In this document: in pieces, positions 7,520-43,842 of the stretch
Layout of the letters: every line of letters starts with the position of its first letter
Position numbering within the stretch: the stretch's first letter is position 1
Origin: Chitinispirillum alkaliphilum
Lineage (GTDB): Bacteria > Fibrobacterota > Chitinivibrionia > Chitinivibrionales > Chitinispirillaceae
NCBI GenBank assembly: GCA_001045525.1
Contig: LDWW01000003.1
Coordinates: 1-64,000, forward strand
DNA: 64,000 nucleotides
Direction: 5' to 3'
Notes under the pieces: generated by a model
Told to the model about the DNA's origin: nothing
Database searches by the model: none
What the model saw: the letters and a program-made list of their open reading frames with translations, nothing else
Program-made: the position numbers and the translations under genes

Positions 7520-8498
7520 GGTGAACTCCTGAGCAAAACCAACAGTGAAGGCACAACCCATTACAATTATGATGTCCTTGGAAATCTCCTCTCTGTCACA
7601 TTGCCAGACGGAACCAATATCGAGTATATTATCGATGGACGCAACCGTCGCATAGGCAGACGTGTCAACGGCTCTTTGATAAGTAAGTATCTCTACCAGG
7701 ACAAGCTAAACCCTGTAGCTGAACTTGATCCATCCGGCAATGTAGTCTCCCGTTTTGTCTACGGAACAAAAATGAATGTTCCTGATTACATGATACGGGA
7801 CGGGGTAACCTACAGGATCATAAGTGATCATCTGGGAAGTGTGAGGCTGGTGGTTAATGCTCAGAGCGGGGAAGTGGTTCAGAGGATTGATTATGATGAG
7901 TTTGGGGTTGTATTGTTTGACTCAAATCCCGGATTCCAGCCCTTTGGATTTGCGGGCGGATTGTATGATGAATTGACGGGGCTGGTGAGGTTTGGGGCGA
8001 GGGATTATGATGCGGAGAGTGGGAGGTGGACGAGTGGGAGGTGGACGAGTGGGAGGTGGACGAGTAAGGATCCGATAAGGTTTGATGGTGGGGATGGGAA
8101 TTTGTATAGATACTGTTTCAATGATCCGATTGAACTATGTGGATCCGGAGGGGGAAAGCCTTATTGGTACGGGTGCTTTGGTAGTGGGAATCGGTGTTGG
8201 AATATGGAAAGCATATGAGTATTGGAAATCTATAGGAGAACTCTCAGAATCGGTTAGAACGCAACGAGAAGAAATTCAAGATCTAAAAATTTTGACCGAA
8301 GAGGATTATTATTCATATCGTGAAACTTATTCCGAATGTTATGTTGATATTAGAAACAAAGCAAAAAATGCATTAGAAAATTCACCTTCCGGAACAGGTT
8401 TAACCGGAACACCAATAACATCCAGGTATGATGCAGTTATTGAGGGTTTAAAAATGTCATGGAGGAAAATAAGGGGTTTTTTCAAAAATGAGAAATAA
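7520..8498 (+). pseudogene. RHS-core fragment, module 2, frameshifted
   Basis: The sequence encodes the C-terminal part of the RHS core (from [11 protein letters not shown] through the GARDYDAE region) without any start. A 15-base unit coding GRWTS is tandemly triplicated at 8021-8065. Near 8125 the frame shifts: the core continues as NDPI and then, in another frame, as [12 protein letters not shown], leading to a ~110-aa tip that ends at 8498. The tip has one hydrophobic segment ([16 protein letters not shown]), a charged coiled region and a basic C-terminus (WRKIRGFFKNEK). It resembles module 4's tip in layout: membrane segment, Tyr/Glu-rich helix, basic Phe-Lys end. With no start and a frameshift, it is a silent cassette unless recombined onto an intact RHS gene. 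Confidence 0.75.
8021..8065 (+). repeat. Triple 15-bp tandem repeat in RHS core
   Basis: The unit gggaggtggacgagt occurs three times in tandem, coding GRWTS three times. Modules 1, 3, 4 and 5 have it once. The length change keeps frame, so it is a slippage or unequal-crossover product within the otherwise highly conserved core. Confidence 0.9.
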
Positions 8499-8994
8499 TA
8501 ATAGAAAAAAATTAATGATATTTGCCATTATAATCGCATTACTGCTTGTAGCGAGCACGTTTAAAAATGATATAATTTTTTTAACAGGTTCAATACTTTG
8601 GCGGTTGAATAATGGAAGTATGATTACGTTTCATGGAATGAGTTTAAAAGTACCTCTAAATTGGAAAATAGATGAAAATACTGATGAGTTACTAACAATG
8701 TATACATTATCCAAAAGTAAAGATAATAAAATTAATATGATTGGTTTTGAACGAGAAGAGGCCACTAGAAGGGGTGTGTATTATAAAGAGCATAAGAATC
8801 CAGCTATAATACAGGAGGATATAGAGGTAAATGAAAAATATAAAGTTAGAAGTGTTAGGTTCCTTACAGAAAACGACTCTATATTTTTAAAAGAATACAT
8901 CTATATTCCGCAGTTTGATATAGTTATGAAAGCTGCTAATCCAAGTAAAAAAATGCGACGTGAATATTTAGATTTGTTAGGTGAAATTAAGTAG
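8488..8994 (+). CDS. Candidate membrane-anchored immunity protein, module 2
   Basis: 168 aa, overlapping the RHS tip by 11 bases, which implies translational coupling. Residues 8-25 (KLMIFAIIIALLLVAS) form an N-terminal membrane anchor; a second hydrophobic patch (IIFLTGSILW) follows. The remainder is a hydrophilic domain of about 125 residues with mixed charge, probably on the periplasmic side. No family recognised. An anchored partner would fit a tip that acts at the inner membrane or periplasm. The immunity role is inferred from position. Confidence 0.6.
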   Translation: MRNNNRKKLMIFAIIIALLLVASTFKNDIIFLTGSILWRLNNGSMITFHGMSLKVPLNWKIDENTDELLTMYTLSKSKDNKINMIGFEREEATRRGVYYKEHKNPAIIQEDIEVNEKYKVRSVRFLTENDSIFLKEYIYIPQFDIVMKAANPSKKMRREYLDLLGEIK

Positions 8995-9002
8995 GTGAAT
9001 GA

Positions 9003-10133
9003 CTTGCCTCCAATGGCAACAGGATAAGCCATGTCGGCCCAAATGGAAACGTAAGTGGCTCTTACGACAACCAGGACCGCATGCTCACTTACGGCGGCAA
9101 CACCTACCAGTACACCGACAACGGTGAACTCCTGAGCAAAACCAACAGCGAAGGGACTACATACTATAACTACGATGTGTTAGGAAACCTCCTCTCTGTC
9201 ACATTGCCAGATGGAACCAACATCCAGTATATTATCGATGGACGCAACCGCAGAACCGGCAGACGTGTCAATGGCTCTTTGATAAGCAAATATCTCTACC
9301 AGGACCAGCTAAACCCTGTAGCCGAACTCGACAATTCCGGCAATGTAGTCTCCCGTTTTGTCTACGGAACAAAAATGAAGGTTCCTGATTACAAGATACG
9401 GGACGGGGTAACCTACAGAATCATAAGTGACCACCTGGGAAGTGTAAGGCTGGTGGTTAATGCTCAGAGCGGGGAAGTGGTTCAGAGGATTGATTATGAT
9501 GAGTTTGGGGTAGTGCTTTTTGACTCAAATCCCGGTTTTCAGCCGTTTGGGTTTGCGGGGGGATTGTATGACGAGCTGACTGGGCTGGTGAGGTTTGGGG
9601 CGAGGGATTATGATGCGGAGACGGGGAGGTGGACAAGTAAGGATCCGATAAGGTTTGAGGGCGGGGATGGGAATTTGTATAGGTACTGTGGGAATGATCC
9701 GGTGAATTTTGTGGATCCTGATGGTGAAGCTGGGATTTCATCAATTTTAATAGGTGCAGCGGCACTGATACTGTTTCCTTTCGCAACAGACCCTATTAGC
9801 TTCCTTTTATCGCCGTTATTAGATTGGTTAGGCATTTCGCCACAACAGCTTGGAGATGGCACTCTTAAACAAAATGAATTTATACTTCCTGCTATCGATG
9901 GAACAGATACAAAAAAAATATGCAGAGATAATGAATCAAATAATAAATGGAATGATATTTTTGATAGGGCTGCATACGACGAGAGGAGTAGAGCTTTAGC
10001 AGAAGAACGCAAATATAGAGAAGCTAATCGTTGGGTAATGATAATGGAGTATGGGGGTACACGAGAAAGAATTTGGGGTGTTCATGGCCGTCCGTACCTT
10101 GGGGGGCGCACAATAAAACCAATAGGAAATTGA
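9003..10133 (+). CDS. RHS-core fragment, module 3, with hydrophobic tip
   Basis: The frame is open from 9003 with no credible start; RHS homology begins at 9009 ([11 protein letters not shown]) and reads uninterrupted through the core and [11 protein letters not shown] boundary. The ~140-aa tip begins with two hydrophobic stretches ([16 protein letters not shown] and [13 protein letters not shown]), then a polar end with [25 protein letters not shown] and a C-terminal [12 protein letters not shown] segment. The same tip type, decayed, is found in module 5. Probably an orphan cassette: intact tip frame but no translation start or delivery domain. An internal ATG at 9081 could start a 350-aa product. 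A partner gene overlaps the stop (TGATG). Confidence 0.72.
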
Positions 10134-10312
10134 TGAAAAGGAAAATACTGTTTTACAAAAAGATATTGGCATATGCAATAGTTTTCGGGTACTTTATTCT
10201 AAGCTATGTTGGGATAAAAGCTGAATTTTCGTTTATAACACATTTAGTTTTTGTTGCGCTGACATTTACACTGCTGTTTTTATTAGCTGATATTGCAGAC
10301 AGAATAAAATGA
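10133..10312 (+). CDS. Small two-helix membrane protein, candidate immunity, module 3
   Basis: 59 aa, starting at the ATG of a TGATG overlap with the module 3 stop. The sequence has a basic start ([10 protein letters not shown]), a first membrane helix (ILAYAIVFGYFILSYVG) and a second (THLVFVALTFTLLFLLA). Stop-start overlap with a toxin-type tip and an all-membrane composition suggest an inner-membrane immunity protein, matching the hydrophobic tip. No family known to me. Confidence 0.55.
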   Translation: MKRKILFYKKILAYAIVFGYFILSYVGIKAEFSFITHLVFVALTFTLLFLLADIADRIK

Positions 10313-10392
10313 CCCTTGCTAGTGTAAATTTTACGCATATTATTTTCTGTAAAAATTGACAGTCTTAAGCAATTCAAAGTTAAATCGATCTG

Positions 10393-11369
10393 CGTGGAAA
10401 CGTAAGTGGCTCTTATGACAACCAGGACCGCATGCTCACTTACGGCGGCAACACCTACCAGTACACCGACAACGGTGAACTCCTGAGCAAAACCAACAGC
10501 GAAGGCACTACCCACTACAACTATGATGTCCTTGGAAACCTCCTCTCTGTCACATTGCCAGATGGAACCAATATCGAGTATATTATCGATGGACGCAACC
10601 GCCGCATAGGCAGACGTGTCAACGGCTCTTTGATAAGCAAATACCTCTACCAGGACCAGCTAAACCCTGTAGCCGAACTTGACCCACCCGGCAATGTAGT
10701 CTCCCGTTTTGTCTACGGAACAAAAATGAATGTTCCTGATTACATGATCAGGGACGGGGTAACCTACAGGATCATAAGTGATCATCTGGGAAGTGTGAGG
10801 CTGGTGGTTAATGCTCAGAGCGGGGAAGTGGTTCAGAGGATTGATTATGATGAGTTTGGGGTTGTATTGTTTGACTCAAATCCCGGATTCCAGCCCTTTG
10901 GATTTGCGGGCGGTTGTATGATCAGAAGACCGGGCTGGTGAGATTCGGGGCGAGGGATTATGATGCAGAGAGTGGGAGGTGGACGGCGAAGGATCCGATA
11001 AGGTTTGCGGGTGGGGATGGGAATTTGTATCGGTATTGTGGGAATGATCCGGTGAATTTTATAGATCCAAGCGGTGAGCTTCTAATTGAAGTTACTGTTG
11101 GTGTAGTACTTGTAGGGATTATAGTTTCTCCAATTATCTATTATGCATATCGAAAAGGCTTGCACGAAGGGCCGGTAATTAATGAAATCGATCCACTGTC
11201 AGCAAGTTATGATGAGTATAGAGCTCAAGTACGTGAAGCAAAAACAGTTTGTGAAGTAACAGCACGAGGTGCAGATGCTTCAGATTATTCGAATCCATTT
11301 GCTGGGGCAATTAAGGGAGCAATCACAGGTTTTAAGAGACTTTTCAAATTACCGGAGGAACCCAAATGA
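10393..11369 (+). pseudogene. RHS-core fragment, module 4, frameshifted
   Basis: RHS homology begins abruptly at [12 protein letters not shown] one-base deletion at about 10914, inside the conserved GGLYDE codons (GGCGGTTGT where other copies read GGCGGATTGT), breaks the frame. The core resumes at 10914 in the next frame with [11 protein letters not shown]. The ~110-aa tip after NDPVNFIDPSG has one strong membrane helix (VTVGVVLVGIIVSPIIYYAY), a Glu/Arg-rich helix with a cysteine, and a glycine-containing basic end (FAGAIKGAITGFKRLFK). The tip itself is intact, so only the core is broken. Confidence 0.75.
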
Positions 11370-35323: not shown

Positions 35324-36481
35324 GTGGAAAGAACTGTAGTTCATATAAATATAGTCAATTTTTATGTTTCTGTGGCCAGGATGCTTCAGCCCCGGATCAT
35401 GAGCTACCCGGTAGCGGTGGTGAGCCCCGGGGCAGGCCGGAGGGTTGTGCTCGATGTTTCCTCTGAAGCTGCCCAGGCCGGGGTAAGAAAGGGTATGGCT
35501 GCAGAGGCCGCCTTGCGTATATGCAGAGACCTGGTGATTACCCATCCTGTTCCCGCTGCCTATGAGAAGGTTGAACAGGTTCTTATGGAAAGGGCCTGCA
35601 CTGTTTCTCCCAGGGCAGAAATCGCCGGTCCCGGACACCTCTTTGTTGATGTCACGGGAACCAGACGCCTTTTGGGCAGTGCGGTTGATGTCGGTGACCG
35701 GTTAAGCAAAAGTATAAAGGAGCAGCTGAGTTTTGAGAGTGCAGTAGGGGTGGCTTCCAATCGTCTGGTCAGTAAAATAGCCACCAGGGTAATTAAGCCC
35801 AAAGGACTCTGCAGTGTGATTAATGGCTGCGAAGAGGAGTTTATGGCCCCGCTTTCTGTGTATCTTCTGCCCGGGCTCGAGAAACACCTTCTGATGAAAC
35901 TGCTTCAGTTTAATATCCGTTTTAACAATCAAATCTTTGAAATTTCGGCATCAGATCTTGCTGCCGCCCTGGGGCCATCGGCACACGAAATCTGCACCCT
36001 GGCAAGGGGTATCGATCAAACCATAGTGCGGGAGATTGTGCAGCCCCCTCCTGTCGTACAGGAACAGATTGTTTTAAAGGAGCAAACCAATGATGAAAAT
36101 CAGATTGCAGCTGCGCTGTTTACCATGATATCCCGGGCTGGTGTCCGGATCAGAAAAATGGGCCTTGCCGCAGGGAATCTCTTTTTGCGTATTACCTATG
36201 CCGATGGATCGGTGGCGTGGAGAAAAATAAAACTTTCGCCTCCTGTGCGGGGAGATCTGACCCTGTTTGAAACTGCCCACCTGTTGCTTAAAAAAATGTG
36301 CTCCCGCAGGGTGCGCCTTGCACGGCTGGACATGAAAGTAACCGATCTGACTTTCCCGTATGGCCAGACCGATCTTTTTCAGGACTGTGAAAAAGAGGAA
36401 AACCTTATGAGTGCGCTGGATTCAATACGGGATAGTTTCGGGGAGGGGTCGATAAAATTCTGGGGCAGAAGCGGGGGATGA
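35324..36481 (+). CDS. imuB: ImuB-like, catalytically inactive Y-family polymerase homologue
   Basis: 385 aa starting at GTG. The fold is that of DinB, but the metal-binding acidic residues are lost: DinB's HIDMDAFFASVE corresponds to HINIVNFYVSVA, and SIDEAFLDVTG corresponds to AGPGHLFVDVTG. This is the hallmark of ImuB, a non-polymerising scaffold of the ImuB-DnaE2 mutasome. The palm/fingers core (GVASNRLVSKIATRVIKPKG, LLPGLEKHLLMKL) is kept. Near the end, QTDLF matches a beta-clamp-binding QxxLF motif, followed by the ALDSIRDSFGEGSI tail. dnaE2 starts 13 bases downstream. ImuA, normally a third partner, is not in the window. Confidence 0.85.
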   Translation: MERTVVHINIVNFYVSVARMLQPRIMSYPVAVVSPGAGRRVVLDVSSEAAQAGVRKGMAAEAALRICRDLVITHPVPAAYEKVEQVLMERACTVSPRAEIAGPGHLFVDVTGTRRLLGSAVDVGDRLSKSIKEQLSFESAVGVASNRLVSKIATRVIKPKGLCSVINGCEEEFMAPLSVYLLPGLEKHLLMKLLQFNIRFNNQIFEISASDLAAALGPSAHEICTLARGIDQTIVREIVQPPPVVQEQIVLKEQTNDENQIAAALFTMISRAGVRIRKMGLAAGNLFLRITYADGSVAWRKIKLSPPVRGDLTLFETAHLLLKKMCSRRVRLARLDMKVTDLTFPYGQTDLFQDCEKEENLMSALDSIRDSFGEGSIKFWGRSGG

Positions 36482-36494
36482 GCTTTGTGTGTAG

Positions 36495-39400
36495 ATGTAT
36501 CCAACGGATCTGTTTAAAAAATTTACCCTTCAGCGGGGTTTTGTCCGTTCCTTTTCTCCTTTCTGCTGCGTGCAGGGATTGATGCTTTCTATGTCTGTTC
36601 TGTTGAGTGTGGTCAGTAATTTTTCGCTTCTCAGGGGTGTATTGTCTCCGGAGCAGATTTGCAGAAGAGCAAAAGAGCTTAGTTATACCGCCGTTGCACT
36701 TACCGACACCGATAATCTCTACGGTCTTCCGGAATTTCTCTCCGGCTGCAGGGATTATGGTCTTCGCGCCATTATTGCTTCGCAGCTGAGTTGTTCTGCT
36801 GGAACAGTACTGCTTTATGCCCGCGGGAATGATGGATACCGCAATCTCTGCCGCATTATCAGCGAAAAGCACTGCAGTGAGAAATTCGATATTCATGAAT
36901 CGATAAAAAAAGATTCTTCCGGCCTCTGCGGGGTCAGCAATGAGCGTCAGGTGATTTCTTCGCTTCATGGAATTCTGCCACTCTACTACCGTATAACATC
37001 CCTTAAAGCGGTACCTGCCTGGGTTAAAGAGCTCAATATGAAATCGCTTGTGATACCTCAGGCGGTTTTCTCTCATGCCTCTCAATACCAGACCCATCGA
37101 TTACTCAGGGCGATCTCGCTCAATACGACTCTTTCAGCGCTCAGCTCTGATCAGCTGTTTCCGTGTGATGCGCTTATGCGTTCCCCCCAGCAGATATACG
37201 ACAGATTTGAAGTATTTGAGGAGGCGCTTCAAACCACCAGACAATTTGGAGAAAATCTCTTTTCCAGAGATGATTTCGGGCAGTTTATTATGCCGGTGTT
37301 TCCGGATTCCCATCCAAATTCAGCAGAAGTGCTGCGGAAAAAAGCCTTTGAAGGAGCAAAATGGAGGTATGGAGAGCTCTCTGAGGCGGTGGTGAAAAGA
37401 CTCGGCTATGAGCTTGAACTCATAGAGAGTAAGGGTTTTTGCGACTATTTCCTGGTTGTGGATGATATCGTAAAACAATCCCCCCGGACCTGTGGCAGGG
37501 GATCGGGGGCGGCAAGTATTGTGGCATTTTGTCTTGGAATCACCAATGTTGACCCTATCCGCTATAATCTGATGTTTGAGCGGTTTCTCAACCCCGGACG
37601 CACCGATCCGCCCGATATCGACATTGACTTTGCCTGGGATGAACGTGACGAGGTGCTTCGTTATGTTTTTGAGAGATACGGGGAGGAGCATACCGCCATG
37701 ATCGCCACGCATCAGACCTTTGGCACCCGTATGGCCATACGGGAGACTGCCCGTGTGTACGGGTGTACAGAGCAGGAGATCAGTGATGTAACCAGAAAGA
37801 TTCCCTGGTTTGCACAATTATGCCAGGATGACAGTCAGCTTGAGGATGAGTTACGATCATTGCCGGTTGCAAGGGATCTCAGTCTCGATCCGCCCTGGCC
37901 GCAAATTCTTTCGGAAGCCAAAAAGATAATCGGTATGCCCAGTGGCATTGGTACCCACTGCGGGGGAGTGGTTATCACTCCCGGGCCAATCAGGGAAATG
38001 GCCCCTGTGCAGTATTCGGCCAAGGGGTTTCCCATAGTTCAGTGGGAGAAGGATGGGGCAGAAGCGATGGGGCTTGTAAAGATCGATCTTCTGGGCAACA
38101 GGTCTCTGGCGGTTATCAGGGATGCTATCGCCAATATACAAGAGGAGGGGGTGGAGTTTGATGAAAACAGCTGGGACCCTCAGAGTGATCCCCAAACAAT
38201 GGATCTTTTTGCCCGGGGGGAGAGTATGGGGGTTTTTTATGTGGAATCTCCGGCTATGCGTCTTCTTCAGAAAAAAAGCGGCAGGGGTGATTTTGAGCAT
38301 CTGGTGATTCATTCATCTATAATCCGTCCTGCGGCGAATGCATATATCAGAAAATATCTGGAGCGGCTTCACGGAGCATCCTTTGAGGTTCTTCACCCGG
38401 TTTTTAAAGAGGTGCTCAGCGAGACATTTGGTATCATGGTCTATCAGGAGGATGTCTCCAGGGTGGCCATGGCTCTGGCCGGATTTTCATCCGAAGATGC
38501 TGATATGCTCAGAAAAATCGTATCCAAAAAGGCCCGTAACAGGCGTTTTGAAGACTATAAACAGAAATTTTTCCACGGTGCAGCTGCACGGGGTGTTTCA
38601 AAGAGTATCATACAGGAAATATGGAATATGATGCTTTCCTTTTCCGGGTATTCATTCTGCAAACCCCATTCTGCAAGTTATGTGCAGGTTTCTTTTCAGT
38701 CTGCATACCTGAAGGTGCACTATCCGGCTTCATTTATGGCGGCTGTGCTCTCAAACTACGGGGGGTATTATTCGACTCAGGCGTATATCAGCGAAGCGAT
38801 GCGGCTTGGCATAAAGGTTTTCCCTCCGGATGTGAATCTCAGTCAGATCAACTACAGAGCTGCTGGAAACACTCTTTTTGTGGGGCTGTGTCAGATAAAG
38901 GGGCTCACTCATAACGCACAGAACAGAATCGTAGAGAGGCGCCGGTGTGATGGCCCCTACAGAGATATGACCGATTTTATGAAAAGAACGAATCTGGATG
39001 AAACCGACATGGAACGGCTTCTCTACGCGGGGGCTTTTGATAATCTTTGCAGGAATATCAACCGTTCCCAGCAGTTCTGGCAGATGAGAAGCTTTTATCT
39101 GGGCGGCAGATCCGGTGGTTCTTTGCCCGGGCTCAAACCGCTAACGCAGGCTCAGTATCTCTCATATCAGTATAAAACCATAGGGTTTCTCACCCCGCAT
39201 CATCCGGTTACCTATGTGCGGTACCATGCCCGGAATTCATGTATAAAGATAGGGCAGATCGATGGCTGTTTGGGCAAAATGGTCACATTTTTAGGCTGGT
39301 GCATAACGTCAAAGACCGTTTTTACCAAAACCGGTGATGACATGGTTTTTGTCACCTTTGAGGATGAAAGCGGTTTGTGCGAAGGGGTATTGTTCCCCGA

Positions 39401-39542
39401 TGTGTATAAAAGATATGCATGGCTCATTGCTCATCACACGGTGGTACTGGTAAAGGGAAAGGTAACTGAGGAGTTTGGGGTGAAGACTGTGGAGATATCA
39501 TGGTTGGGGAGGGTGAGGAGGGTCGAGAGGTTGAGAGGTTGA
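36495..39542 (+). CDS. dnaE2: DnaE2-like error-prone DNA polymerase III alpha
   Basis: 1015 aa at most, about the length of DnaE2 and shorter than replicative DnaE. The catalytic Asp pair is in PPDIDIDFAWDERDEV, and AMGLVKIDLLGNRSLAVI provides the third region. A PHP-like N-terminus reads VVSNFSLLRG where DnaE has HLHVHSHYSLL, so PHP metal ligands are lost. HhH (FSFCKPHSASYVQVSFQS) and OB (KTGDDMVFVTFEDESGLCEGVLFP) regions are typical. It does translesion synthesis with ImuB. The start may be 36495, 36582 or 36591; the conserved part begins at MSVLLSVVSN (36591). The last codons are repeat-like. Confidence 0.9.
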   Translation: MYPTDLFKKFTLQRGFVRSFSPFCCVQGLMLSMSVLLSVVSNFSLLRGVLSPEQICRRAKELSYTAVALTDTDNLYGLPEFLSGCRDYGLRAIIASQLSCSAGTVLLYARGNDGYRNLCRIISEKHCSEKFDIHESIKKDSSGLCGVSNERQVISSLHGILPLYYRITSLKAVPAWVKELNMKSLVIPQAVFSHASQYQTHRLLRAISLNTTLSALSSDQLFPCDALMRSPQQIYDRFEVFEEALQTTRQFGENLFSRDDFGQFIMPVFPDSHPNSAEVLRKKAFEGAKWRYGELSEAVVKRLGYELELIESKGFCDYFLVVDDIVKQSPRTCGRGSGAASIVAFCLGITNVDPIRYNLMFERFLNPGRTDPPDIDIDFAWDERDEVLRYVFERYGEEHTAMIATHQTFGTRMAIRETARVYGCTEQEISDVTRKIPWFAQLCQDDSQLEDELRSLPVARDLSLDPPWPQILSEAKKIIGMPSGIGTHCGGVVITPGPIREMAPVQYSAKGFPIVQWEKDGAEAMGLVKIDLLGNRSLAVIRDAIANIQEEGVEFDENSWDPQSDPQTMDLFARGESMGVFYVESPAMRLLQKKSGRGDFEHLVIHSSIIRPAANAYIRKYLERLHGASFEVLHPVFKEVLSETFGIMVYQEDVSRVAMALAGFSSEDADMLRKIVSKKARNRRFEDYKQKFFHGAAARGVSKSIIQEIWNMMLSFSGYSFCKPHSASYVQVSFQSAYLKVHYPASFMAAVLSNYGGYYSTQAYISEAMRLGIKVFPPDVNLSQINYRAAGNTLFVGLCQIKGLTHNAQNRIVERRRCDGPYRDMTDFMKRTNLDETDMERLLYAGAFDNLCRNINRSQQFWQMRSFYLGGRSGGSLPGLKPLTQAQYLSYQYKTIGFLTPHHPVTYVRYHARNSCIKIGQIDGCLGKMVTFLGWCITSKTVFTKTGDDMVFVTFEDESGLCEGVLFPDVYKRYAWLIAHHTVVLVKGKVTEEFGVKTVEISWLGRVRRVERLRG

Positions 39543-39854: not shown

Positions 39855-40069
39855 ATATGCAGCACTGTTTTTGGAGGGGGGAGTGTTAAGATTTTTGTGT
39901 GATGCGAGTTATATACTATTACTGTTGAGCGGCAATGCCCCTGTGAGTCTATGAATTTAGTTAAAAATTTGCCCATAACTATCTGAGGAGTATATTTTGT
40001 ATATGTTTGAAAGTTATAATACCTGATAGTGATCTATTATTTAATTGTTTAAGTGAAAGCGGGGCAAAA
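39855..40069. other. Upstream region of secreted-protein gene
   Basis: No gene. The region is AT-rich near its right end and may hold a promoter for the gene at 40070, but no box pair is convincing. Confidence 0.35.
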
Positions 40070-41242
40070 ATGAACCGAAGAAAAATCAACCGTGTAGGTG
40101 TTGCGGTGATGATGTTTTTGACATTAACTGTAACAGTTTTTCCCGTGCAGGCGCGTGACATGCTCGCACGATACATTAACGATGTAAAAGCAGGACCATC
40201 GATTTATTACACGCCTGAGGCAGCACAGTACTATCACAGAACCGCCGGGCTTTCGGTTTCAGCCGACAGAAATGCAGCCGAGAAAAGTTACGAGGCAATG
40301 ATTAAACTCGCTGAAATGGGTATGGTTTCTTCACCGGCGATCCCTACAATTGTTGACAAATTCCCAACTGCAGTGCATGTGTCCACTGTTTCCGGAGCAA
40401 GATTTACAGGTAATGAACCTTTTGAAGACTGGTTAAGTGCATTCATCGTTTCTGCCAAAAACAACTTCCTGCTCTCAGCACCATTTCTAAACATTGAGAC
40501 TATGAATATATGTGAATCATTCATAGAGGTTTCACATACTACTGATTTCAGGGAAAGAAGCCCTGCATCCGGTAACACTATCCGATCTGCAGTTGTGGAC
40601 ATTAACATCATCTTCAAGGTTCATGTGGGTGCCTGCATGCTTTCCAGAATAACAGGGATAAGCGGGATTACATCTGCTGAAGGATGGCGTCACTGGCTCA
40701 ATGAAAACAGACACACCGTGTCAGGCGTCGATACTGCTCCTACTCATATTGCACCGCATGTTCATGGTCATTCCAACCTTAAAGACTTTGTGGAAAATGG
40801 ACGTTATCGTCTGATGATGGTTTCACGTCAGGACATCGAAGGAGAAGTTATTTCTGTTGATGGTGATGAAATCATCTTCCATACCACAGAGGACAGACGT
40901 TTCCGTCTGAACAGAAATCAGATATTCAGAAGCCGTCTTTTGGCTCTTCCCGAGCAGAATCCCGAACAATCTCAGCAACAGGGGGCCCGGCCAGTTCAGA
41001 CTTCACAGACAACCACTACTACCACAAGAACTGTAGATGGGGAGCAACAGGGCAGAATATGGGCTTTTGAGGATCTCAATCTCCTGAGGGAAAATACAGA
41101 ATTGAGAGTTAGGCTGAATAATGGTTCACTTCTGATCGGAACACTACACAGTTTCGATAATAATGTGCTTACAGTTGAGATGCTTGGGCTTAGAATCCCA
41201 TTAAGAAATTCTGTCGTTGAGGAGATTGTTGTTTTCAGGTAA
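40070..41242 (+). CDS. Exported protein with C-terminal SH3/Sm-like domain
   Basis: 390 aa from ATG 40070; the ATG-like start at 40007 adds 21 residues before the signal peptide. Residues 1-30 (VGVAVMMFLTLTVTVFPVQA) are a signal peptide with probable cleavage after VQA. The N-terminal half (HRTAGLSVSADRNAAEK...) is helical. A Gln/Thr-rich linker (QSQQQGARPVQTSQTTTTTTRT) leads to a final domain with LRVRLNNGSLLIGTLHSFDNNVLTVEMLGLRIPL, resembling an Sm/SH3 barrel. Another similar hairpin (EGEVISVDGDEIIFHTTEDRRFRLNR) precedes the linker. Family unknown. A terminator follows. Confidence 0.7.
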   Translation: MNRRKINRVGVAVMMFLTLTVTVFPVQARDMLARYINDVKAGPSIYYTPEAAQYYHRTAGLSVSADRNAAEKSYEAMIKLAEMGMVSSPAIPTIVDKFPTAVHVSTVSGARFTGNEPFEDWLSAFIVSAKNNFLLSAPFLNIETMNICESFIEVSHTTDFRERSPASGNTIRSAVVDINIIFKVHVGACMLSRITGISGITSAEGWRHWLNENRHTVSGVDTAPTHIAPHVHGHSNLKDFVENGRYRLMMVSRQDIEGEVISVDGDEIIFHTTEDRRFRLNRNQIFRSRLLALPEQNPEQSQQQGARPVQTSQTTTTTTRTVDGEQQGRIWAFEDLNLLRENTELRVRLNNGSLLIGTLHSFDNNVLTVEMLGLRIPLRNSVVEEIVVFR

Positions 41243-41477: not shown

Positions 41478-42551
41478 TCACCCTTTTCGATTCCACTGTG
41501 ATTGCATTGAATAATTTTGGTGGTCTGTTTCTTTGATAACAGCGTTCCACTCATAAGTTGAGGGCCAATTTTTGAAAATCTTCACCAGACCATATATCAA
41601 CCGAAGTGAAAATTTGGTTGGACGTGGTATCCACCCCAATGAGGGTATAAGTTTAGCTGTTATGATATTGTTGGTCTTATCAATTGTATAAAAACCTTCA
41701 ATGCTGCCGGTGGAAGAGTGTGCTTTTATTGTGAATCTTCCTTTACGGTGAGTTGTATCAGGCAATGTCTGCAGGTCAGGAAAAGCCGGTTCGAAACATA
41801 GCTCTACCGGTTGTGTTTCATTGACCCGTGTGATTTTTTCTATTGAAGGTCCCTCTCCTTGGTTCCAGTTTATGTGGATTGTATGTCCATCTTTTTCAAA
41901 TACTTTTGTGACCGCAGGTATCTTGATGGTATCAACCACACCGCTAAATGCAGGGTTCAACAATGCAATGAGTGGTTTGGGACTGTAGCGGGCAAAGTAC
42001 ATTTTACTCCAGTCCATTGGTAACGGGAGTTTATCTGGTTTATGTGTTCTGCCATTTATACCAATTGTTATTTCTGTGTGGTTTTTTCTTACAAAATAGA
42101 AATCATAAAGGAATACCAAAGGCATAGATGAGGGGGATTCTGCAGCATGTCCCATTGGTGCCAGTAAACCGAAGGGTTTACGCTTTTTTGGATTTTTTTC
42201 TCTGACAGTGAGTACAATTTTTCTATCAAGAATATCTGTAAACTCATAGTGAGCCTGCACTCCAAAACTGCTGATCTCGTAAAAGGCCTGAGAGAACTGA
42301 GTTTCAACAATATTTGCAAGACCCTTACCTGTAATGTTGTACTTCTCCGGTCTAAGTGTTAATGATGATTCATGGAACACATCCACTCTACCATCTTTTC
42401 TCCAACCGATAACCAGATGCCCCTTACCGTTAACTGCATCTTCAAATACCTGAGGTTCAAAGCCTATGTAGGTTGAGTCCGGATCATTTTCAATGTTTAC
42501 AAGCAATAGCCTGTTCATGGGGTCTATATTGATTCGAAAAGGATTAATCAT
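41478..42551 (-). CDS. Protein of unknown function
   Basis: 357 aa. No signal peptide (the start is MINPFRINIDPMNRLLLVNIENDPD). The sequence is beta-rich with repeats of short strands (HLVIGWRKDGRVDVFHESSLTLRPEKYNI) and a central YSPKPLIALLNPAFSGV. No motif recognised; it does not look like a membrane protein. It might be a carbohydrate or lipid-binding protein, but that is a guess. It is oriented leftward between a rightward terminator and the next leftward gene 148 bases away. Confidence 0.65.
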   Translation of the reverse strand: MINPFRINIDPMNRLLLVNIENDPDSTYIGFEPQVFEDAVNGKGHLVIGWRKDGRVDVFHESSLTLRPEKYNITGKGLANIVETQFSQAFYEISSFGVQAHYEFTDILDRKIVLTVREKNPKKRKPFGLLAPMGHAAESPSSMPLVFLYDFYFVRKNHTEITIGINGRTHKPDKLPLPMDWSKMYFARYSPKPLIALLNPAFSGVVDTIKIPAVTKVFEKDGHTIHINWNQGEGPSIEKITRVNETQPVELCFEPAFPDLQTLPDTTHRKGRFTIKAHSSTGSIEGFYTIDKTNNIITAKLIPSLGWIPRPTKFSLRLIYGLVKIFKNWPSTYEWNAVIKETDHQNYSMQSQWNRKG

Positions 42552-42699: not shown

Positions 42700-43665
42700 T
42701 TAAAACAGAGAGGCAAAGAGGTCAAGCTGCATATTGGCCGGTTCTTTCTTTTTTTTGGCAGATCTTTCTTCCGGTATTATGACTGTTGTTTTCTGATCTT
42801 CACAGATACCATTTACTCTTATTACATTATAGCTTACAATCTTCTCTACTCCTTCGTTATCGATCTTCTTCTTAATTTCCAGTATACAATCGATTGCTGT
42901 TCCGTTTTTGAAATGAATATCCCCATTCAGTACCATTTTCCTGAACTGTTCCGACTTCATATTGAACGATATCCTTTTTCCGTCATAGATACCTACCCAC
43001 TTAAGATTTCCGTCTTTAAGAACAGGAGAGATTATCGTAATTATGGTGTCAGTTTCTGTTGGATCAAGGTCATCACGGACAAGGACGTGTCTTTTGAACT
43101 GATCACGTGACAAGGCACTTTGGTTTGCGACAATGTACTGCTTGTCATCATCAACCAGTGCAAAAGAAACCCTCTGCACTCTGGGATATTTTTTTAACGC
43201 GGAGTAAAAGTTTGATTTCTTTCTCTTGATTACACTGCTGTGGCTGAGTTCTCTGTTTTTATTCAGAATTTCTGCTTTGAGTGTGTCAAAATCCGGATTT
43301 TGACTTGCAAGTTTTTTGAACTCAGAATTTGTGAAGATTTTTTTGAGGATTTTTTCGGTATTCGTGGAGAGGTCTTTAGTGATGGAAGTGATGAAAATCC
43401 CAGTCGCAAGGGCAGCTATACAGGTCCGGGTAACAGAAGCAATATCACTTTTGTTCTTGCCATCTATCTTAAACCATCTGCGCACACCTGAATCTGTTGC
43501 TGATTCTGTTTCTATAGAAATTCTGGATCCTAGAACAGATGCAACTTCTTTAAGAACGCCAAGAAACTCATACTCACATCTGTTCTGAACAAAAGCATCC
43601 ATGGTATATGAATCGTTATCAAAGCTATAGTGCAGTTCCAGTGTGTTTGCATCAAGTAATGACAT
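42700..43665 (-). CDS. Unknown protein ending in a beta-clamp-like QLDLF motif
   Basis: 321 aa from ATG 43665, preceded by AGGAAGAG; an in-frame GTG at 43698 would add 11 residues. A central stretch (SVTRTCIAALATGIFITSI) is hydrophobic, and later strands (VQRVSFALVDDDKQYIVANQ; GIYDGKRISFNMKSEQFRKMV) suggest a beta-domain. The lysine-rich end (RSAKKKKEPAN) leads to MQLDLFASLF, where QLDLF matches the consensus beta-clamp-binding pentapeptide. Otherwise no family recognised. Leftward, separate from the hisG operon by a terminator. Confidence 0.65.
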   Translation of the reverse strand: MSLLDANTLELHYSFDNDSYTMDAFVQNRCEYEFLGVLKEVASVLGSRISIETESATDSGVRRWFKIDGKNKSDIASVTRTCIAALATGIFITSITKDLSTNTEKILKKIFTNSEFKKLASQNPDFDTLKAEILNKNRELSHSSVIKRKKSNFYSALKKYPRVQRVSFALVDDDKQYIVANQSALSRDQFKRHVLVRDDLDPTETDTIITIISPVLKDGNLKWVGIYDGKRISFNMKSEQFRKMVLNGDIHFKNGTAIDCILEIKKKIDNEGVEKIVSYNVIRVNGICEDQKTTVIIPEERSAKKKKEPANMQLDLFASLF

Positions 43666-43842
43666 TTTCTCTTCCTGTTCATCCTTTTTCTTATTCACGG
43701 AAATCCTGATGTTTATTTTTATTGCAATTCATATTATCAGACAAGCTGAAACGAGCTCTCAGGGTCAAAACATACGGGCCCCGGAAAGGAAACTGGCAGA
43801 AACTCTCATATCCAGAGTAGCCGGGGGAAAAATCGGACTGTC

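Follow-up and report, generated by a model that had tools for sequence, protein, structure and literature searches.

A conserved C-terminal clamp-binding motif in a PDC-S42 candidate defence protein of Chitinispirillum alkaliphilum

The window analysed here is a stretch of 64,000 nucleotides of Chitinispirillum alkaliphilum contig LDWW01000003.1. It encodes a 321-residue protein of the PDC-S42/LAPAL superfamily with the C-terminus ...QLDLFASLF. The aligned sequences indicate that a putative tail for binding the DnaN sliding clamp is a signature of this whole superfamily, which is a new observation here. The window protein very probably binds the host DnaN clamp physically, as far as its sequence can tell. 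The somewhat favoured reading is that it represents a single-gene candidate factor against phages or other mobile elements, docked on DnaN and holding an OB fold at replicating DNA. The gene and the parts of its product are as follows.

42700 to 43665, minus strand: coding sequence, 321 amino acids, PDC-S42/LAPAL superfamily with predicted C-terminal clamp-binding motif (open reading frame, PDLC05016 match at E=5.2e-87, alignment)
43669 to 43676 in plus-strand numbering, minus strand: AGGAAGAG, ribosome-binding-like sequence upstream of the ATG (read directly)
43462 to 43644, minus strand: N-terminal alpha/beta domain, residues 8-68, with a strand, a long helix and two strands (alignment, AlphaFold2)
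43390 to 43446, minus strand: hydrophobic helix, residues 74-92 (AlphaFold2, hydropathy)
43189 to 43371, minus strand: helical region, residues 99-159, with a conserved SNFY helix (AlphaFold2, alignment)
42778 to 43059, minus strand: OB-fold-like domain, residues 203-296, beta-beta-beta-alpha-beta-beta (AlphaFold2, full-length and isolated domain)
42730 to 42777, minus strand: flexible lysine-rich linker, residues 297-312 (AlphaFold2 pLDDT, column statistics)
42715 to 42729, minus strand: QLDLF pentapeptide, residues 313-317 of 321, predicted to bind the clamp (sequence, conservation)

The open reading frame runs from an ATG at 43663-43665 to a stop codon at 42700-42702. A GTG at 43698 could serve as the start of a longer version, but the ATG is preferred because the homologues align from it and AGGAAGAG lies directly upstream. 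The gene is a lone copy between hisG and an unknown ORF, with no defence operon around it. The adjoining minus-strand gene (41478-42551) encodes a protein of 357 amino acids with zero Pfam or NCBIfam matches. The product of a plus-strand gene at 40007-41242, 411 residues long, may include a secretion signal and weakly matches LSM/Hfq at its C-terminus; it reaches no family at cut-off.

The earlier note placed QLDLF near the C-terminus behind a flexible lysine-rich stretch, and this is confirmed. The pentapeptide ends four residues before the C-terminus, downstream of a linker with an AlphaFold pLDDT of about 50, and itself lies in the low-pLDDT tail, on the kind of exposed flexible segment expected of a clamp motif. 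It equals the consensus QL(S/D)LF, which is described in a review as a C-terminal bacterial clamp motif (PMC9690074). A second short element, TPQGK, is conserved in the linker of most relatives about 12 residues upstream of the clamp motif, and is degenerate in the window protein (residues 297-301, alignment A2).

Searches of genome contigs, phages, and viral contigs with the single sequence gave no matches, and retrieval of homologues needed an alignment query. The main homologue set, from an alignment-based scan with N-terminal patterns, comprises 42 loci in Bacteroidota, Pseudomonadota, Campylobacterota, Kiritimatiellota, and Fibrobacterota. Since these were fetched by N-terminal patterns only, the conservation of the tail is not an artefact of selection. 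Of 40 homologues, 37 carry a clamp motif within their final 16 residues, compared with 8 of 515 neighbouring ORFs. When the homologues are clustered at 60% identity and the last 26 residues are considered, the motif is present in 29 of 34 clusters, compared with 14 of the 515 neighbours; L081, which has the degenerate tail QKLNF, is entered here among the clusters without a motif. Shuffling the same tails in 2000 trials gave a mean of 1.06 motif-bearing clusters and a maximum of 6. The glutamine Q313 is retained in 29 and the phenylalanine F317 in 28 of 31 aligned sequences. The entropies of these two positions are 0.41 and 0.61 bits, whereas linker residues 290-311 average 2.24.

Among 61 close genomes searched, three have the gene, including that of the window; the tails of the other two are LQLDLFASLV and QQLDLFDCEPVAFY. 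Relatives from a plasmid collection, at about 30% identity, end in QLTLDLFG (Parabacteroides) and QGDLFETS (Vibrio). The homologues have the pentapeptides QLNLF, QGDLF, QTDLY, QTDMF, QSDLF, QEDLF, QIDFF, QYKMF, QLSLF, and QGSLF, and the hexapeptides QLTLDL, QINLDL, QLRLPL, QLELQL, and QLNIDL. Orthologues thus switch between QLxLF-type and QLxLDL/QLxLPL-type motifs. This supports clamp binding, because the two forms are alike only in fitting the clamp cleft and their exchange is otherwise hard to explain. The motif is degenerate in a few members (L015, SLEFDF; L080, QKINF), L046 has a shifted QGKLDL farther from the C-terminus, and L041 is a shorter, truncated protein without the motif. The L019 copy is frameshifted, and its second frame still ends in QQNLF. 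The LAPAL clade is mostly clamp-tailed as well, with QLPLF, QKELF, QISLEF, QINLDL, and QIALDL. The QLDLF end is therefore conserved among homologues, as the earlier note had proposed to check, being kept C-terminally down to about 25-30% identity and in the deeper sister clade.

The protein was previously considered unrecognised outside its tail, and this fails. The PADLOC profile PDLC05016 for PDC-S42 covers residues 5-317 of 321, PDC-S42 is matched by 32 of 32 aligned members, and every relative tested matches at least one of the PDC-S42 profiles PDLC05015, PDLC05016, and PDLC05017. The NCBIfam family LAPAL_fam (NF053583) matches distantly at residues 129-285 with an E-value of about 1e-16 and 58.6 bits, below the curated cut-off of 60 bits, and a related protein in genome G006 lies just above it. 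True LAPAL members correspond to PDLC05015 and form a separate deep clade, so that the window protein shares their superfamily but not their clade. The idea of a new clamp-associated factor accordingly stands in part: the conservation of the motif across homologues argues for a putative clamp-associated protein, whereas the protein itself was already recognisable as PDC-S42 and LAPAL_fam.

PDC-S42 is listed in PADLOC-DB as a single-gene phage defence candidate, and the window protein matches its profile over the full length. The PADLOC record has no description, and the conserved clamp tail is not mentioned in the sources found. PDCs are single-gene candidates that come from a guilt-by-embedding screen (PMC12988326; Payne et al. 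2024, a preprint cited in PMC12629846). The literature search found no paper naming PDC-S42, or LAPAL together with phage, and no anti-phage assay of the PDC-S42 family. The protein contains no Pfam domain in a Pfam search and has no sequence match in the PDB.

The full-length AlphaFold model has a mean pLDDT of 86 and a pTM of 0.78. The helix at residues 74-92 is TM-like in many relatives, with a 19-residue mean hydropathy of up to 2.3 (1.6 in the window protein), and may allow contact with a membrane. In the helical region, S151 and N152 are invariant in the alignment. The topology of residues 203-296 fits a barrel of five strands in which a helix separates strand 3 from strand 4. The isolated domain has a pLDDT of 86, and its top matches in a PDB fold search are mainly folds that we take to be OB folds, none with E<0.001. 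The best is the mitochondrial SSB Rim1 (probability up to 1.00, E about 0.02 (0.018)), and the others are the PolD DP1 subunit, ExoVII, lysyl-tRNA synthetase, HIN-200 domains, and bacterial SSBs. An SSB-like OB fold is thus likely from the model, though not proven, since the individual E-values are non-significant. Whether this predicted fold contacts nucleic acid is an even call. The full-length PDB fold search gave nothing informative beyond this hint, and matches in BFVD are uncharacterised phage proteins, one of them DUF6575 (probability 1.00).

The host genome (G000) has only one DnaN. Its residues L155, T172, G174, H175, R176, L177, P242, V247, M362, P363, and R365, which we take to be cleft positions, are the same as in E. 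coli, and the clamp cleft appears largely intact. Clamp clients with QLxLF include Y-family polymerases, Hda, MutL, and others. The window protein shares with them the class of short motif, terminal or internal, on a flexible segment. In contrast, their folded domains are unrelated to those of the window protein, which matches no known replication or repair enzyme in the Pfam search.

The genomic contexts of the relatives include several defence operons. In type I restriction-modification (RM) loci the gene lies between hsdS and hsdR in hsdM-hsdS-gene-hsdR order, with gaps of 12 bp and 39 bp (L019), within hsdM-hsdS-orf-gene-orf-hsdR (L044), after hsdM-hsdS at a contig end (L049), and within hsdR-gene-hsdM-hsdS with an overlapping junction (L093, from the same taxonomic family as the window). 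The gene in this last operon (L093:9176-10177) encodes a LAPAL-clade relative with QISLEF near its C-terminus. In a type II RM operon the gene follows the REase and is followed by a TIR-domain gene (L013). It is also found upstream of McrBC (L025) and next to a PglX-like methylase (L094). Genes for a helicase and a T5orf172 protein accompany it in L015 and in L028, the latter with PDC-S05 and RhuM as well, and in L100 a type IIG enzyme lies 3.8 kb away. Most other copies, like that of the window, are lone genes in varying places, many of them with housekeeping genes around them. Across distant loci, no conserved partner gene was found except RM genes and a response-regulator domain. The distribution is patchy: of 168 genomes from the phylum, 4 have the gene, and it was found in 4 of 229 genomes of a gammaproteobacterial-class sample (PDLC05017) and 12 of 247 genomes of a Bacteroidia sample (LAPAL_fam). 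A LAPAL-clade homologue with the tail QIALDLE occurs in Listeria phage vB_LmoS_188 (L077:4001-4888), in the lysogeny region between an annotated superinfection-immunity gene and the integrase.

A second clamp motif had been noted in an ImuB-like protein of the window. The genes at this site are as follows.

35324 to 36481, plus strand: ImuB-like Y-family protein, with INIVNF and an internal QTDLF
36495 to 39542, plus strand: DnaE-type polymerase III alpha, downstream of the ImuB-like gene

The QTDLF is present at residues 348-352 (36365-36379), although it is internal and not terminal. Active Y-family polymerases usually have a catalytic aspartate at the position of INIVNF, and the ImuB-like protein is therefore probably inactive as a polymerase, judging by this replacement. 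A DUF72 gene precedes it, and the DUF72, ImuB-like, and DnaE-type genes form a probable mutagenesis cassette. The nearness of the two motifs, which the earlier note pointed out, has no bearing on the protein: ImuB is on the other strand and several kb off, and a Y-family polymerase adjoins the gene at only one of about 36 homologous loci inspected (L016). There the homologue (7980-8969) is followed on the opposite strand, at 8984-10712, by genes for a UmuC-like polymerase and probably a UmuD-like protein, and genes resembling site-specific recombinases lie in the vicinity. The idea that the protein works with the ImuB/DnaE cassette was dropped for lack of synteny.

A defence role of the PDC-S42 family member is probable, being plausible from its PDC-S42 membership and the defence-operon contexts of its relatives. 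The replication fork is the probable place of action of the family, because relatives across several phyla and one phage keep the clamp tag. In the favoured mechanism, QLDLF on its flexible tail would bind the hydrophobic cleft of the host DnaN, and this docking would keep the SSB-like OB fold at the primer-template junctions of DNA that is being replicated. The tethered protein would then recognise invading DNA or block its replication, acting through the N-terminal alpha/beta and hydrophobic helical part.

A chance match of the C-terminal motif in an unrelated protein is extremely improbable. Short motifs are common, as seen in the 14 neighbouring ORFs that carry one, but across phyla and in both clades the motif positions stand out as the best conserved of a tail that varies elsewhere. 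This reading was rejected by that conservation and by the test itself, with 29 of 34 clusters observed and 1.06 expected from shuffled tails. It is unlikely that the protein is a growth inhibitor, an effector of abortive infection or of a toxin-antitoxin system that on release or induction fills the DnaN cleft and so arrests replication. Toxins are common among defence genes, a near-consensus motif would probably bind tightly, and known toxins hit the same clamp pocket (PMC12795458; PMC9690074). SocB of Caulobacter and RipA of Streptococcus pneumoniae are such sliding-clamp-targeting toxins of the DnaN hydrophobic pocket (PMC12795458). These small accessory proteins act at the site where the window protein would dock. 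Unlike the SocAB/RipA type, the window family is larger and multidomain with an OB-like fold and has no conserved antitoxin-like partner across its loci. Its 321 residues with two conserved folded domains go far beyond the needs of a competitor peptide, and the constitutive-looking lone genes speak against strong toxicity.

The tight insertions between hsdS and hsdR (L019), between hsdR and hsdM (L093), and after the type II REase (L013) would also suit an RM accessory that uses the clamp just behind the fork, where hemimethylated DNA arises, and tempers self-restriction or guides methylation of the new DNA. This is improbable, as most homologues, including that of the window, have no RM gene nearby, and the mixture of partners, which spans both RM types as well as McrBC and further systems, fits an embedded independent defence gene better. 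An origin as a replication or structural protein of a phage or other element, left as a genomic remnant and recruiting the host clamp for replication of the element, is very unlikely. It is in line with the NCBIfam name of LAPAL_fam, 'putative phage structural protein', the homologue in vB_LmoS_188, and a weak match to PHROG 3243. However, the phage gene is not among structural genes, most members do not adjoin phage genes, and the window protein has no direct match in 50,697 phage records or in viral contigs. The genomic contexts of the relatives give a structural role no support, and together with the clamp tail they suggest that the database label is misleading.

The preferred reading remains a clamp-docked candidate defence factor. 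A recent review of DNA-targeting defence names phage SSB, RecBCD inhibition, DNA ends, and topology among the triggers, and a text search of it for the replication sliding clamp, whether as trigger or as docking site, turned up nothing (PMC12904381). Tentatively, PDC-S42/LAPAL could be an undescribed immune class that uses the host clamp as docking platform or trigger, and senses or blocks foreign replication at the clamp-loaded fork. The presence of a conserved clamp tail on a candidate defence family offers an immediate and cheap mechanism-level hypothesis, namely that protection would depend on three motif residues.
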